DNA of 64,000 bases. It comes from Flavobacterium resistens (GTDB taxonomy: Bacteria > Bacteroidota > Bacteroidia > Flavobacteriales > Flavobacteriaceae). Each line of letters begins with the position of its first letter. Position 1 is the first letter of the stretch. A model generated the notes under the pieces. The model saw only the letters and a program-made list of their open reading frames with translations, did no database searches and had not been told where the DNA came from. The position numbers and the translations under genes are program-made. This document shows positions 46,949 through 52,736 of the stretch, piece by piece. Location: contig NZ_FXTA01000001.1 of NCBI RefSeq assembly GCF_900182645.1, positions 372,001 through 436,000 on the forward strand, given 5' to 3'.

Positions 46949-47767
46949 TTACCAGCCTTTTACTGCACCGCCTCTAAATTCGCGTTCAGCTGCTTTTTCA
47001 ACTTCTGGAGATTGAAAAGCCTGCAAAAACTGTTTTACTTTTTCTTCGTTTTTATTGTCTTCACGGCTAACCACCAAATTCACATAAGGTGATTCTTTGT
47101 CTTCAACAAATAAAGCATCTCGTGACGGAACCAATCCTGCCTGAGAAGCAAACGTATTATTGATAATCGCAATTGAAACATTTGCATCATCTAAAGCTCT
47201 TGGTAATTGTGGCGCTTCTAATTCTAATATTTTCAAGTTTTTAGGATTACTGATAATGTCTGTTACTTTTGGCAATAAGCCTACACCATCTTTCAATTTC
47301 AATAAACCATTTTTCTGCAAAAGCAATAATGAACGACCTCCGTTTGTTGGATCATTCGGGATAATAATCGTGCTTTCGTTTTTCAACTCTGAAAGGTTTT
47401 TTATTTTTTTAGAATAAGCTGCGATTGGGTAAACAAATGTTTTTCCGATGATGGCCAATTTATAGCCACGTTGTTTAGATTGTTCATCCATATATGGTTT
47501 GTGCTGAAAAGCATTTGCATCGATATCACCTTGGCTTAAAGCTTCATTTGGAATTACATAATCATTAAAAGAAACCAATTCTACTTCTAATCCAAATTTT
47601 TCTTTCGCTACTTTTTTAGCAGCTTCAGCCACTTTTAATTCTGGTCCGGCAGCAACTCCAACCTTAATAAAATGTGGATCATTCTTTTTATCATTTCCAC
47701 AATTTGATAAAACAAGTGCCAAAGCCAAAACTCCGGCAGTTTTTAAAATATCTAATTTATTTTTCAT
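46949..47767 (-). CDS. metQ: Methionine ABC transporter substrate-binding lipoprotein
   Basis: The 272-residue lipoprotein has an N-terminal signal with lipobox LSNC (Cys near 23). The NlpA/MetQ domain is recognisable by FIKVGVAAGPELKVAEAAKK, LSQGDIDANAFQHKPYMDEQ, IIPNDPTNGGRSLLLLQKNGLL and the C-terminal EREFRGGAVKGW. It captures methionine (often D- and L-forms) in the periplasm for MetNI. It is the last gene of metN-metI-metQ; the 97-base gap after metI holds heptamer repeats. Confidence 0.95.
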   Translation of the reverse strand: MKNKLDILKTAGVLALALVLSNCGNDKKNDPHFIKVGVAAGPELKVAEAAKKVAKEKFGLEVELVSFNDYVIPNEALSQGDIDANAFQHKPYMDEQSKQRGYKLAIIGKTFVYPIAAYSKKIKNLSELKNESTIIIPNDPTNGGRSLLLLQKNGLLKLKDGVGLLPKVTDIISNPKNLKILELEAPQLPRALDDANVSIAIINNTFASQAGLVPSRDALFVEDKESPYVNLVVSREDNKNEEKVKQFLQAFQSPEVEKAAEREFRGGAVKGW

Positions 47768-47864: not shown

Positions 47865-48518
47865 CTATCGGTGATCAAATCGTTTTGATAATCGATCTCC
47901 GGCAAACTGGATCAGGAATACCAAAATCACCAGTAAACCTAAAACTGAATTCATCGTTACCGCATCATAACCGATATATCCATATTGATAACCAACTTGC
48001 CCTAATCCGCCAGCTCCAACAGCTCCACCCATTGCAGAATAACCTACAAGGGTAATTAATGTAATAGAAGCCGCATTGATTAAAGAAGGCAAAGCTTCCG
48101 GAAGCAAAACTTTATAAACAATTTGAAAAGGAGTTGCACCTAAAGCTCGTGCAGCTTCAATCAATCCTGAAGGAAGACTTAATAAACTGTTTTCGACCAA
48201 ACGAGCAATAAATGGCGCTGCGCCAATGCCCAACGGAACTAAAGCCGCACTAACACCAATTGAAGTTCCAACAATAGCTCGTGTAAACGGAATCATCCAA
48301 ACGATTAAAATGATGAACGGAATGGAACGAAAAATATTCACCAAAACCGATAAAGTTCTGTTTAAAACAGGCTGGTCTAAAATTTGATTTTTACGGGTCA
48401 GGAAAAGTAAAATTCCTGTTGGAAGTCCTAGTAAAAAGCCAAAAAAGCCCGATACAAAAGTCATAACTATGGTTTCCCATGTTCCTTTTACTAATAAATC
48501 TATAATTGAATCAGACAT
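47865..48518 (-). CDS. metI: Methionine ABC transporter permease
   Basis: The 217-residue inner-membrane permease has five helices and the conserved coupling loop [24 protein letters not shown]. Other MetI features are the opening [52 protein letters not shown] and [23 protein letters not shown]. It pairs with MetN for ATP-driven methionine import. Its start overlaps the metN end by eight bases. Confidence 0.96.
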
Positions 48519-49542
48519 AACCTATAATTTCTGTTTTAATGTGTTTTGAATTAAAATATTGAATCGCAGCATTGTAATTCTCGCGTTTTCCTGAAAGTTC
48601 AATCAGCATAACACCAAAATTTACTTCGCCAGCCTGATCCATTTGTGCGCTTACAATTTTGAAATCAGTATCAAAAAGCCTTGAAACTTCTGAAATAACA
48701 GGCTCGTTAACTGATTTTCCGGTCATTTCTAATTTTAATAATGGATTCAGATTTCCATTATCTTCTTTTTGCAATTTTTCCTGATAAACCGATGGAACTT
48801 CAATATGTAAAGAAGAAGAAATAAATTCTCTGGTTAATTCCTCTTTTGGATCAGCGAAAATTTCTCCGACACTTCCCTGTTCTATCAGTTTTCCGTGGCT
48901 GATAACGGCAACTTCATCACAAATCGATTTTACGACTTCCATTTGGTGCGTAATAAGCAAAACTGTGATGTTCAAACGTTTATTGATATCTTTCAATAAA
49001 TTCAAAATTGAGCGTGTTGTTGCAGGATCTAAAGCACTTGTTGCCTCATCACACAATAATACTTTTGGATTATTAGCCAAAGTCCTCGCAATCGCCACTC
49101 TTTGTTTTTGTCCACCAGAAAGACTTGCTGGATAATCGTTTGCTTTTTCAGCCAAACCTACTAATTGCAATAATTCTAAAACACGTGTTTTGATTTCACT
49201 TTTTGAAGTTCCTGCCAATTCTAACGGAAAGGCAACATTTTCGAAAACGGTTCTTGAAGAAAGCAAATTGAAATGCTGAAAAATCATTCCGATTTGTCTT
49301 CTTTCAATTGCCAACTCTCGGTTTGAAAGTTGCATCAACGCTTTTCCATCTACAATAATTTCACCCGAAGTTGGTCTTTCCAACAAATTCACACATCGGA
49401 TCAAAGTACTTTTTCCAGCACCCGAAGTTCCAATAACACCAAAAACTTTTCCCTCCGGAACTCTCAACGAGACATCATACAAAGCAGTTACGACTCTGTC
49501 TTTCTGATGAAAAGTTTTGGTTACATTTTTTAATTCAATCAT
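48511..49542 (-). CDS. metN: Methionine ABC transporter ATPase
   Basis: The 343-residue ATPase has Walker [11 protein letters not shown]-loop [12 protein letters not shown], signature LSGGQKQR, Walker [13 protein letters not shown] and switch His in LLITHQM. A C-terminal NIL domain (about 265-340) binds methionine in this family and causes trans-inhibition by cytoplasmic methionine. It heads metN-metI-metQ. A strong terminator-like hairpin ends 22 bases before its ATG, itself preceded by a Met/Cys-rich short frame, so its expression may be controlled by attenuation. Confidence 0.97.
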
Positions 49543-49564
49543 TTCTCAATCAAGGTTAAAAACA

Positions 49565-49598
49565 AAAAAGCCTTTCAAATGTTCATGAAAGGCTTTTT
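49565..49598 (-). terminator. Terminator or attenuator hairpin before metN
   Basis: A 13-bp perfect stem (AAAAAGCCTTTCA and complement) with an 8-nt loop is followed on the minus strand by T6-G-T5. It ends only 22 bases before the metN ATG. It could terminate the PLP-enzyme transcript or act as an attenuator for metNIQ; the leader frame in front of it favours the second or both. Confidence 0.85.
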
Positions 49599-49616
49599 GA
49601 AATAAATAATATCATT

Positions 49617-49712
49617 TTATATAGAAGCCAGCTCAATGAATTGCATTACAATAGTACAGCACATCATACTGCTGTTATAATAATTCTTCATATTCTGGTC
49701 ATTTTTTCTCAT
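49617..49712 (-). CDS. Candidate Met/Cys-rich leader peptide of metNIQ
   Basis: A 31-codon frame starts at ATG 49712 and stops at 49617, 18 bases before the hairpin. Met codons fall at positions 1, 8, 16, 17 and 23, with Cys at 18 and 19 (core SSMMCCTIVM). A start at codon 8 (ATG 49691) would give 24 residues and a more normal leader. Met and Cys are rare residues, and they cluster right in front of a terminator and a methionine importer. That arrangement is what a ribosome-stalling attenuator would show. The GGCTT in its last codons can pair with the AAGCC of the terminator's left arm, a possible antiterminator. There is no direct evidence of translation. Confidence 0.5.
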   Translation of the reverse strand: MRKNDQNMKNYYNSSMMCCTIVMQFIELASI

Positions 49713-49720
49713 TGCGATTG

Positions 49721-49754
49721 CAAATTTAAGTAGTAATTTCCAATTTTAGCACAA
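49721..49754 (-). promoter_or_regulatory. Possible internal promoter for leader peptide and metNIQ
   Basis: On the minus strand, TTG (49752-49754), a 23-base spacer and TAAATTTG (49721-49728) fit the TANNTTTG promoter class at its upper spacing limit. The transcript would start about 4-5 bases before ATG 49712, making the second in-frame ATG (49691) the more usable start. It lies in the gap after the PLP-enzyme stop at 49804. Confidence 0.5.
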
Positions 49755-49803
49755 AAATCATTAAAACTTTTATTACCCTATCAAAATAATAGATTATTTT
49801 TTA

Positions 49804-51285
49804 TTACAATCTAAACCAATCATTCACTTCTCTCGAAATTGTATCTTTTAGCCTTGGATTTTCAAATTCATTTGTGACAGGATTATATTCGTAATCTTTT
49901 TGCCATTCTTTATAATATAAAGACACTTGCTTAATCGCATTACAAATAAATAAAAGCTCTTCATTTGTAGTAATCGGATGCAGTGATAAACGTACCCAAC
50001 CCGGCTTATTGATTTGATTTTTCTCCGATAATTCTTTGGTAATTGCTCTGGAACGTTTTTCATCAATATTGAACAGATAATGCGCATAAGTACTCGCGCA
50101 CGACCAGCCACCGCGAACCTGAATTCCGAAACGATCATTTAAAAGTCGTACGATTAAATTGTAATGAATATTTTCAATTACAAAAGAAACACAGCCAATC
50201 CGCTTGCTTTTTAAGTCTCCTAAAATGGACAAACCTTGTATTTTTTGAAGTTTCGAAAAACAAACATCCAAAAGTTCTTTCTCTCTTTTTGCAATCTGCT
50301 CCACTCCCATTTTTTCTTTTAATTCTATTGCCAAAGCAGTTCGAATCACTTGCAAAAATCCCGGAGTTCCGCCGTCTTCTCTTACTTCAATTATGTCACT
50401 GTATGAATATTTCCCTAAAGGATTTGTCCATTTTACATTTCCTCCGCCCGGATTATCAGGAAAATCAGATTGGTATAATTTTTCATTAAAAACCAAAACA
50501 CCGCAAGTTCCTGGTCCGCCCAAAAATTTGTGAGGCGAAAAGAAAATAGCATCTAATTGCTGTTCTGGATCTTTTGGATGCATATCGATTTTGACATAAG
50601 GTGCCGAAGCTGCAAAATCTACAAAACACAATCCGCCGTTTTGATGCATGATTTTGGCTAATTCATAATAAGGTGTAATAATTCCCGTAACGTTTGAGCA
50701 TGCTGTAAATGAGCCGATTTTTACACTTCTGTCAGCGTATTTTTTTATTTCTGAAGAAAGAATTTCGGGATCGACCAAGTTATTTTCATCCGGAGGCAGA
50801 ATTACAACATCGGCATCGGATTCATACCAGGAAACCTGATTCGAATGATGTTCCATATGTGTGATAAAAACTACTGGTTTATCATTTGCATTTTCTTTTT
50901 GATGATTCTTTCTCAAGCCGATAATACGCTGTAATTTCGACAAAGCAGCCGTCATTCCAGTTCCGGTTGTCACTAAAACATCAGCTTCGTTTGCATTAAC
51001 CGACTTTTTAATAATGTCTCTTGCGCGCTGATAAGCATAAGTCGAAGCTTTTCCGGTTTGACTTGAAAACGAATGCGTATTGGCAATCATCGGACCAACT
51101 TTATTGAGCATAATATCTTCAATCGGGACGTATAATCTTCCACTGGCAACCCAATCTGCATAAAGCAAATTTTGTTCTCCGTAAACCGATTCAAAAATAT
51201 GATCAATTCCTAATGTGTTTTCTCTAAACTTATTAAAGTAACACTCAGATTCTGTTGATTTTGTTGTTGGCTCAATAGCATTCAT
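49804..51285 (-). CDS. Class V PLP-dependent aminotransferase / cysteine desulfurase-like enzyme
   Basis: The 493-residue protein has the fold-type I class V pattern. The active-site Lys is in FFSPHKFLGGPGTCG (near 252), the pyridine-ring Asp in GGLCFVDFAAS (about 213), a phosphate-binding TGTGMTAAL and a C-terminal Arg/Gly segment GIQVRGGWSCAS. The Cys of that last motif lies where SufS-type desulfurases carry their catalytic Cys. It lies in a SAM-I-controlled unit with a TlpA-like thioredoxin and ahead of the methionine importer, so a role in cysteine/methionine sulfur mobilisation is inferred. The substrate cannot be read from the sequence. The 42-base gap to the upstream gene indicates one transcript. 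Confidence 0.85.
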   Translation of the reverse strand: MNAIEPTTKSTESECYFNKFRENTLGIDHIFESVYGEQNLLYADWVASGRLYVPIEDIMLNKVGPMIANTHSFSSQTGKASTYAYQRARDIIKKSVNANEADVLVTTGTGMTAALSKLQRIIGLRKNHQKENANDKPVVFITHMEHHSNQVSWYESDADVVILPPDENNLVDPEILSSEIKKYADRSVKIGSFTACSNVTGIITPYYELAKIMHQNGGLCFVDFAASAPYVKIDMHPKDPEQQLDAIFFSPHKFLGGPGTCGVLVFNEKLYQSDFPDNPGGGNVKWTNPLGKYSYSDIIEVREDGGTPGFLQVIRTALAIELKEKMGVEQIAKREKELLDVCFSKLQKIQGLSILGDLKSKRIGCVSFVIENIHYNLIVRLLNDRFGIQVRGGWSCASTYAHYLFNIDEKRSRAITKELSEKNQINKPGWVRLSLHPITTNEELLFICNAIKQVSLYYKEWQKDYEYNPVTNEFENPRLKDTISREVNDWFRL

Positions 51286-52554: not shown

Positions 52555-52613
52555 TTTTTTTTTAATAAATTTTAATACTGATGATCTCATTCAGATTTGT
52601 TTTAGAAATCTTT

Positions 52614-52710
52614 CTTATCTGTCCCGCAAGGCGGGAAGGATTTAGCACCTTGTTTGGCAACAGGTTGCTAAGACTTCGCAGGGCCTACTCCCTCAGTCTT
52701 TCTGGATAAG
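52614..52710 (-). promoter_or_regulatory. SAM-I riboswitch (S box)
   Basis: The 97-base minus-strand element has all SAM-I hallmarks in order: P1 strand CTTATC, GAGGGA, GGCCC, GAAG, GCAACC, GGTGCTAAATCC, a P4 hairpin CCCGCCTTGCGGG and the closing AGATAAG that pairs with the start. SAM binding normally switches off downstream sulfur genes. No strong terminator immediately follows: a weak AGATTT/AAATCT stem and an A-tract lead to a short frame, so control may be translational, acting on that frame. It lies 27 bases after a consensus promoter and precedes the TlpA-like gene, the PLP enzyme gene and metNIQ. Confidence 0.96.
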
Positions 52711-52736
52711 TATCATTACAGAAATATTCTGCGCTA

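Follow-up and report, generated by a model that had tools for sequence, protein, structure and literature searches.

The leader region of metNIQ

This analysis concerns the region upstream of metNIQ, encoding a methionine ATP-binding cassette (ABC) importer, in a stretch of 64,000 nucleotides (nt) from Flavobacterium resistens (contig NZ_FXTA01000001.1, positions 372,001 to 436,000), here called the window. It sits in a 5.04-Mb genome, and the named metN loci closest to its metN are from Flavobacterium species. A first-pass annotation of this DNA had placed a promoter-like element, a Met/Cys-rich frame, a hairpin with a T-run, and a GGCTT/AAGCC complementarity between metN and the gene of a pyridoxal phosphate (PLP) enzyme, and every one of these items was found on the minus strand. 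In the order in which that strand is read, the features are:

49804-51285, minus strand: class-V aminotransferase-like (PLP-enzyme) gene (Pfam Aminotran_5), its stop end facing metN
49777..49793, minus strand: palindrome TCTATTATTTTGATAGG, a likely transcription-factor operator, upstream of the leader promoter
49757-49752, minus strand: upstream promoter half TTTTTG, which differs among relatives
49721..49728, minus strand: -7 promoter element TAAATTTG, 8 nt 5' of the leader ATG
49617..49712, minus strand: leader peptide open reading frame (ORF) MRKNDQNMKNYYNSSMMCCTIVMQFIELASI, 31 codons, with a related in-frame ORF in 43/43 loci
49656..49667, minus strand: putative regulatory codons Met-Met-Cys-Cys (MMCC), with column conservation in relatives
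49625..49629, minus strand: putative antiterminator 5' arm GGCTT, at the end of the ORF, its GGCT invariant
49619-49617, minus strand: leader stop codon
49591..49595, minus strand: putative antiterminator 3' arm AAGCC, within the terminator left arm, from alignment and folding
49564..49598, minus strand: predicted intrinsic terminator, a 13-bp hairpin (49598-49586 / 49577-49565) with T-run, from folding, the hairpin being conserved in the alignment
48511..49542, minus strand: metN, methionine ABC transporter ATPase and first gene under the proposed control (TIGR02314, 546 bits, cut-off 499.7)
47865..48518, minus strand: metI, permease (NF008049, 385.3 bits, cut-off 212)
46949..47767, minus strand: metQ, substrate-binding lipoprotein (NF008285, 429.9 bits, cut-off 374)

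The leader ORF has Met at codons 1, 8, 16, 17 and 23 (five of 31). The T-run reaches 49564, and the metN ATG follows at 49542, 22 positions further. Six Met or Cys residues in 30 internal codons correspond to a binomial P of 9.5e-5 (background 1.9% Met and 0.6% Cys, from 189 long frames of the genome), and the conservation among relatives described below goes far beyond this chance estimate for the Met/Cys content. Against NCBIfam, the peptide has no match at E <= 1. Between 49540 and 49800, Rfam gave six matches, all below the gathering score and none of them an S-adenosylmethionine (SAM) or T-box element, and so did not identify the metN leader as a SAM-I riboswitch or a T-box; the sole Rfam match at gathering score in the whole window is the SAM riboswitch at 52612-52712.

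Conservation of the leader and a proposed switch

I searched 299 genomes of the genus, and identified metN at E <= 1e-120 in 49 of them. The upstream set comprises these genomes and four named Flavobacterium loci (three of which are identical upstream to sampled genomes), and within it the 43 whose metN has 88.9% identity or more form the close set, to which the counts in this section refer. The promoter element, an in-frame leader and the terminator are kept in all 43, with a spacing of exactly 8 nt between TAAATTTG and the leader ATG in each case; because this element lies so near the ATG, the leader mRNA should be nearly leaderless. Every leader contains at least one Cys and at least one internal Met. 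Adjacent Cys residues are found in 37, the motif MCC in 34 and MMCC in 27, and by alignment column the two Cys are kept in 41 and 39, the two adjacent Met in 39 and 31, and the downstream Met in 39. Much of the leader outside this block varies. The first-pass annotation had proposed asking whether the frame and its Met and Cys codons are conserved among relatives; this was the outcome, with an in-frame Met/Cys block in 43/43 and a first Cys codon that drifts synonymously (TGC in 26, TGT in 15). The distance from the ATG to the Cys pair falls into five classes, all in frame (43/43, the pair having been sought within the translated frame), the interval between that pair and GGCT spans all three frames, and the leader stop lies 9 to 36 nt past the pair.

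The tetranucleotide GGCT, complementary to AGCC of the terminator left arm, is identical in 42/42 distinct aligned sequences, including the 10 of 43 loci where the ORF stops 5' of it. The corresponding 5-bp helix, GGCTT:AAGCC, is paired in 97.1% of alignment cells. With the terminator right arm omitted, RNAalifold predicted GGCU:AGCC alone, and with the right arm included, the terminator alone. Relative to the first base of the stop codon, the putative antiterminator arm begins at between -10 and +10 nt; its start is 18-27 nt past the Cys pair. A terminating ribosome should cover the GGCT arm, and one stalled at MMCC should not, for a ribosome footprint of the usual size.

From these features I infer leader translation, ribosome stalling, a main signal (methionine or cysteine) and a transcriptional outcome, as follows. 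RNA polymerase would start a few bases 5' of the leader ORF, with a ribosome trailing it on a nearly leaderless mRNA. When Met-tRNA and Cys-tRNA are charged, the ribosome would reach the stop codon and cover GGCTT, the terminator AAAAAGCCTTTCA/TGAAAGGCTTTTT would fold, and transcription would end before metN. When methionine or cysteine is short, the ribosome would stall at MMCC or at the later Met, leaving GGCTT (26 nt 3' of the Cys pair) free; it could then pair with the left-arm AAGCC while the right arm is still to be synthesised, and transcription would continue into metNIQ. In this genome, the leaders of metY and of the TonB-receptor gene, described in the next section, would operate likewise with different sequences.

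Two further observations were made in these upstream regions. Complementarity between CCAG and CTGG was seen by eye in the metN leaders, and is a candidate 1:2 protector hairpin. In four Flavobacterium loci, a Flavo-1 RNA (RF01705, function unknown) precedes the metN leader ORF by about 100 nt, at the following positions:

L004:5605-5681
L006:5615-5692
L121:1416-1493, minus strand
L126:1364-1444, minus strand

Known and putative regulatory elements at other methionine and sulfur genes

The window and a 34-kb methionine cluster of the same genome, 98 kb together, were scanned for Met/Cys-rich ORFs (threshold 22% Met+Cys) followed by a terminator, and three loci were found: the metN leader of the window and the leaders of a TonB-dependent receptor gene and of metY, the O-acetylhomoserine sulfhydrylase gene. 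The window leader was detected from an internal ATG only, because the full ORF is 19% Met+Cys, under the threshold. No match occurred in 20 other 20-kb stretches of this genome (400 kb), none in 657 kb of 60 other loci of the metN set, and two in 1.47 Mb of Markov sequence. The 400-kb control is the fairer one, as the 60 loci are mostly from Proteobacteria and Firmicutes, with other base composition, and include one unclassified metagenome-assembled genome (MAG; L048). The sensitivity of the scan is limited, with 31 of the 43 known metN leaders recovered. A profile of the metN leader, run against the window's own genome, returned the known copy (E 4e-17) and two weak matches (E 0.24 and 0.67), both rejected by eye as leaders; one contains a stop codon.

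Downstream of a second palindrome site (C2:616272), the receptor locus has a promoter-like stretch, then the ORF MKLTVCNMMSCMMPELSAETLL and a terminator, and finally the TonB-dependent receptor gene, which adjoins metK. The metY gene is preceded by the Met/Cys leader ORF MKTIANNMVMCCQMMQMCIPICCCQK. Both leaders are unrelated in sequence to that of metN. The TonB leader is present in 20/20 loci with a receptor at least 83% identical, in a locus set that leaves out four further weaker matches. Its putative antiterminator, GCAGAG (codons SAE):CTCTGC, is paired in 120/120 cells from 20 distinct sequences, and in 21 TonB-type leaders its start precedes the stop by 15 or 18 nt. The receptor is a possible importer of methionine or of a sulfur compound. 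A third site of RTGATGTGYTGY (L150) was rejected as a leader, as it lies antisense within a 489-aa frame. The receptor gene is located at:

L141:4555-7401, TonB-dependent receptor gene beside metK, with the Met/Cys leader upstream

Ten Flavobacterium metY loci were compared; the metY leader is present in eight, L157 has one of TonB type instead, and L160 has none. The putative metY antiterminator, CCAAAAG:CTTTTGG, is paired in 95.9% of 49 cells, and the two unpaired cells stem from a one-column misalignment of L159, which keeps the antiterminator segment although it is positioned past the stop. Tandem leader-terminator units precede metY in L154 and L156 (in both, TonB type first, then metY type) and in L159 and L169. 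In other Flavobacteriales families, Met-rich but Cys-free leaders with terminators precede metY in L169 (two in tandem, the first passing a looser threshold only), L170 and L172, and the Met-only criterion gave no match in the 400-kb background. In L172, ACTTAAAAGAG extends across the stop codon and is complementary, without a mismatch in 11 bases, to the terminator left arm and loop. These Cys-free leaders suggest that Met can suffice as a signal.

The same scan gave 13 matches in 20 Bacteroidota metN loci, namely 11/11 from Chryseobacterium and two of the four named Flavobacterium loci; the remaining two (L003 and L006) have the leader though the scan missed both. The Chryseobacterium Met/Cys leader and terminator lie directly before metN in three loci, before a frame of about 331 aa in seven, and before a gap in one (L058). 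This gap (L058:5396-6001) is 605 nt long and contains no frame over 70 aa, at the place where other Chryseobacterium have the ~331-aa frame between leader and metN.

In most of these leaders, a segment near the stop codon is able to pair with the left arm of the terminator that follows it, and I considered whether each leader pairs best with its own terminator arm. For seven leaders there are 5040 arm assignments, of which 4, counting the matched one, attain the matched sum. L170, a homologue of the first L169 leader, stands outside this test, and with it added as an eighth leader 5 of 40320 do so; with the three strongest leaders removed, the figure is 5 of 120. Shuffling gives a combined p of 1.2e-5, which is due to TonB, metY and L172.

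Control at the DNA level appears likely as well. The palindrome upstream of the metN leader is kept with small changes in the Flavobacterium alignment, and a related form precedes the Chryseobacterium leaders. Two more sites were found in the same genome, one before the TonB leader and one before sulfate assimilation genes (cysH, cysD) near an Rrf2 gene. The pattern search that found the TonB site gave two matches and one control match, a 31-letter operator pattern matched the window site only, and a relaxed pattern with three mismatches gave 7 matches against 7 control matches, and so carries no statistical weight. Because controls equal matches in this last search, palindrome sites are trusted only with their genomic context. 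The site before cysH and cysD, near the Rrf2 gene, makes DNA-level control likely too, and the palindrome is likely to be a transcription-factor operator, with the Rrf2 regulator as a candidate. The relevant positions are:

Window 49777-49793, palindrome site
L137:1501, palindrome site
L145:1501, palindrome site
L141:18333-18743, Rrf2 regulator gene, near the sulfate-assimilation operon

SAM-I riboswitches sense SAM directly through their aptamer. Three copies (RF00162, also called the S-box) are present in the genome: one precedes the window operon that contains the PLP-enzyme gene and a tlpA-like gene, one a MetX-like gene (its top NCBIfam model is MetX, at 181 bits and below the cut-off) and one a frame for the N-terminal part of methionine synthase. 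SAM-I thus likewise precedes methionine genes, but no SAM-I or SAM-II match overlaps any of the three Met/Cys leaders. A 32-codon ORF, MKTKSVLLHADSDRFNLFFQENNVEVFRMQRF, was seen by eye between the window riboswitch and the tlpA-like gene. The individual matches of note are:

Window 52612-52712, minus strand: SAM-I riboswitch, 82.3 bits, 3 kb upstream, preceding the tlpA-like thioredoxin gene and the PLP enzyme
L137:1310-1416, minus strand: SAM-II riboswitch match, 49.3 bits, adjoining metK on the same strand

Interpretation, alternatives and known systems

Taken together, these results make it highly probable that the metNIQ leader is a ribosome-mediated transcription attenuator sensing charged tRNA-Met and/or tRNA-Cys, as the first-pass annotation had suggested. 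The Met/Cys block kept in 43/43 close loci and the recurrence of the architecture at other methionine genes and in another genus support this. Attenuation is the simplest account, because codons that would be regulatory are retained in an otherwise variable peptide, the arrangement recurs where the genes belong to the corresponding pathway, and arms able to pair lie at the stop codon. A Met/Cys variant of the known ribosome-mediated mechanism is the best explanation of the metNIQ leader.

A number of observations weigh against this. Several concern the pairing. The first-pass annotation had proposed that GGCTT pairs with AAGCC of the left arm; the segments are complementary and conserved, but the pairing is not significant in the single sequence: in the window alone 313/1000 shuffles score as high by duplex run and 187/1000 reach the duplex energy, with a p of 0.34 in the cross-leader test. 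The pairing rests on conservation, not on single-sequence significance. Its core is just 4-5 bp and without covariation, because the helix hardly varies; 5 of the 43 loci pair at four positions only, one of these being G-U (GGCTG/AGGCC), and one locus has a mismatch. A longer metN antiterminator, taken from the window fold, was rejected, with 58-67% of cells paired and covariation not above shuffles. The TonB family offers a single compensatory change, AU to GC (L193), and 51/500 shuffles reach as much; the metY antiterminator has no covariation, and for Chryseobacterium no convincing antiterminator pairing emerged. In the arm tests, metN, both L169 leaders and Chryseobacterium have individual p above 0.1, the matched arm is the best arm in just four of the seven leaders, and the swap-test p values are optimistic, because the sequences were hand-chosen after the pairings had been seen.

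Others concern distribution and signal. No leader was found in the 7 of 49 genus genomes with a distant metN (65-74% identity), nor at the Dyadobacter, two Pedobacter and Apibacter metN loci (one further locus, L007 from a MAG, ends 22 nt before metN). The TonB leader occurs in 0/10 loci with a receptor about 55% identical. For metY, a Met/Cys leader was found in 0/15 loci outside the genus, and no leader of any kind in 11 of these 15 (the sequence of L168 is cut off); at L160, a weak Met/Cys ORF was excluded and no leader counted. Sensing of Met and Cys also leaves unexplained the Q and Y residues conserved in the metN leaders, and initiation of translation itself requires Met-tRNA, which complicates Met sensing.

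A rival account is nascent-chain arrest, in which not uncharged tRNA but the peptide within the exit tunnel (NQ..YY..MMCC, for example) would halt translation as a response to free methionine, to SAM or to the thiol state, with the same switch downstream. This seems improbable. The metN leaders do keep Q in 41/43 (column 6), Y in 38/43 (column 11) and N in 32/43 (column 5), but the TonB, metY, Chryseobacterium and other-family metY leaders share Met/Cys or Met richness only, and the conserved NQ codons could reflect a constraint on the RNA (CCAG with CTGG, by eye). Closer to the proposed attenuator, of which it is a sub-version with overlapping odds, is sensing of cysteine only, or of methionine only, the other residue being incidental. 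Conservation of the two Cys columns (41 and 39 of 43) is similar to that of the three Met columns (39, 39 and 31), and the leaders of three other-family metY loci are Met-rich and Cys-free; both residues are nevertheless enriched in the Flavobacterium metN, TonB and metY leaders and in those of Chryseobacterium, and I consider single-residue sensing possible but rather unlikely.

The first-pass annotation had also allowed that the hairpin could merely end the upstream transcript, which would here be that of the tlpA-like/PLP operon, with an incidental ORF and metN under promoter or operator control alone. The SAM-I riboswitch at 52612-52712, the end of the PLP gene at 49804 and the operator-like palindrome at 49777-49793 agree with such an arrangement, but it fails to explain why a conserved promoter element and a Met/Cys-retaining ORF lie between the PLP gene and the hairpin, why GGCT is invariant, or why the same set of elements occurs at other methionine genes; it can be given very little credence. 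Equally hard to sustain is that the leader encodes a functional small Met/Cys-rich protein, one that would bind metal or act as a sensor in trans, and that the terminator after it is an ordinary one: the peptide is conserved in 43/43 and has vicinal cysteines in 37, but the position of its C-terminus varies, the complementary segment is kept beyond the ORF in 10/43, and the peptides at other loci differ in sequence and yet are Met/Cys-rich.

Attenuation by charged tRNA, the preferred reading, is classically known from the trp, his, leu, thr and phe leaders. With these the metN leader shares a short ORF containing codons for the controlled amino acid, an intrinsic terminator with a putative, mutually exclusive antiterminator, and an arm of the latter that would lie under the finished ribosome. 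It differs from them in its combination of Met and Cys codons, in its association with methionine uptake and metY genes, in the very short metN antiterminator, in its Bacteroidota host and in a leader that is probably near-leaderless. Mycobacterial polycysteine leaders were reportedly described by Canestrari and colleagues in 2020, and are said to be called leaderless in the title of that work.

The accessible portion of one study presents Cys-leader candidates in Actinobacteria, whose methionine operons it describes as lacking conserved RNA structures (Seliverstov et al., 2005; PMC1262725). The present leaders resemble these in being Cys-rich short ORFs upstream of sulfur genes. However, the mycobacterial polycysteine leader is, in the same portion, a Cys-only run with no conserved terminator hairpin, while Met codons and an intrinsic terminator are present here. 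Within the genus, the available text of a study of F. psychrophilum sees 'strong clues' that operons of amino-acid biosynthesis are attenuated by leader peptides, and its conserved 5' elements include those of pheA and hisG; its main text as available does not use the word methionine (PMC9723704). The present proposal is similar in genus and in type of control, the operons there being those of amino-acid biosynthesis. Leader-peptide-like short ORFs are mentioned in Bacteroides (PMC7366714). For F. johnsoniae, the accessible part of PMC6847099 describes mostly leadered mRNAs, in a phylum without Shine-Dalgarno sequences, and does not contain the word attenuation. Neither Met nor Cys leaders appear in the excerpts of PMC4833913 and PMC1183508. 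Among the matches listed from the open-access literature (the best 20 of up to 410), none dealt with leader peptides for methionine or metNIQ in Bacteroidota.

The recurrence of these leaders raises a wider possibility, to which I would give an even chance: a multi-operon attenuation regulon for sulfur amino acids in Flavobacteriales, in which interleaved Met and Cys codons would sense a shortage of either tRNA, with Met-only versions in other families. Its targets would be methionine uptake and metY, whose leaders are without a SAM riboswitch in this genome. Bacterial methionine control is known mainly from riboswitches, T-boxes and repressors. If the reading proposed here is true, the recurrent Met/Cys leaders would mean that translation-coupled attenuation serves methionine too, in a phylum without Shine-Dalgarno sequences, and would explain how uptake and metY operons are tuned without a SAM riboswitch of their own. 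It would also suggest methionine or a sulfur compound as the ligand of an uncharacterised TonB receptor.
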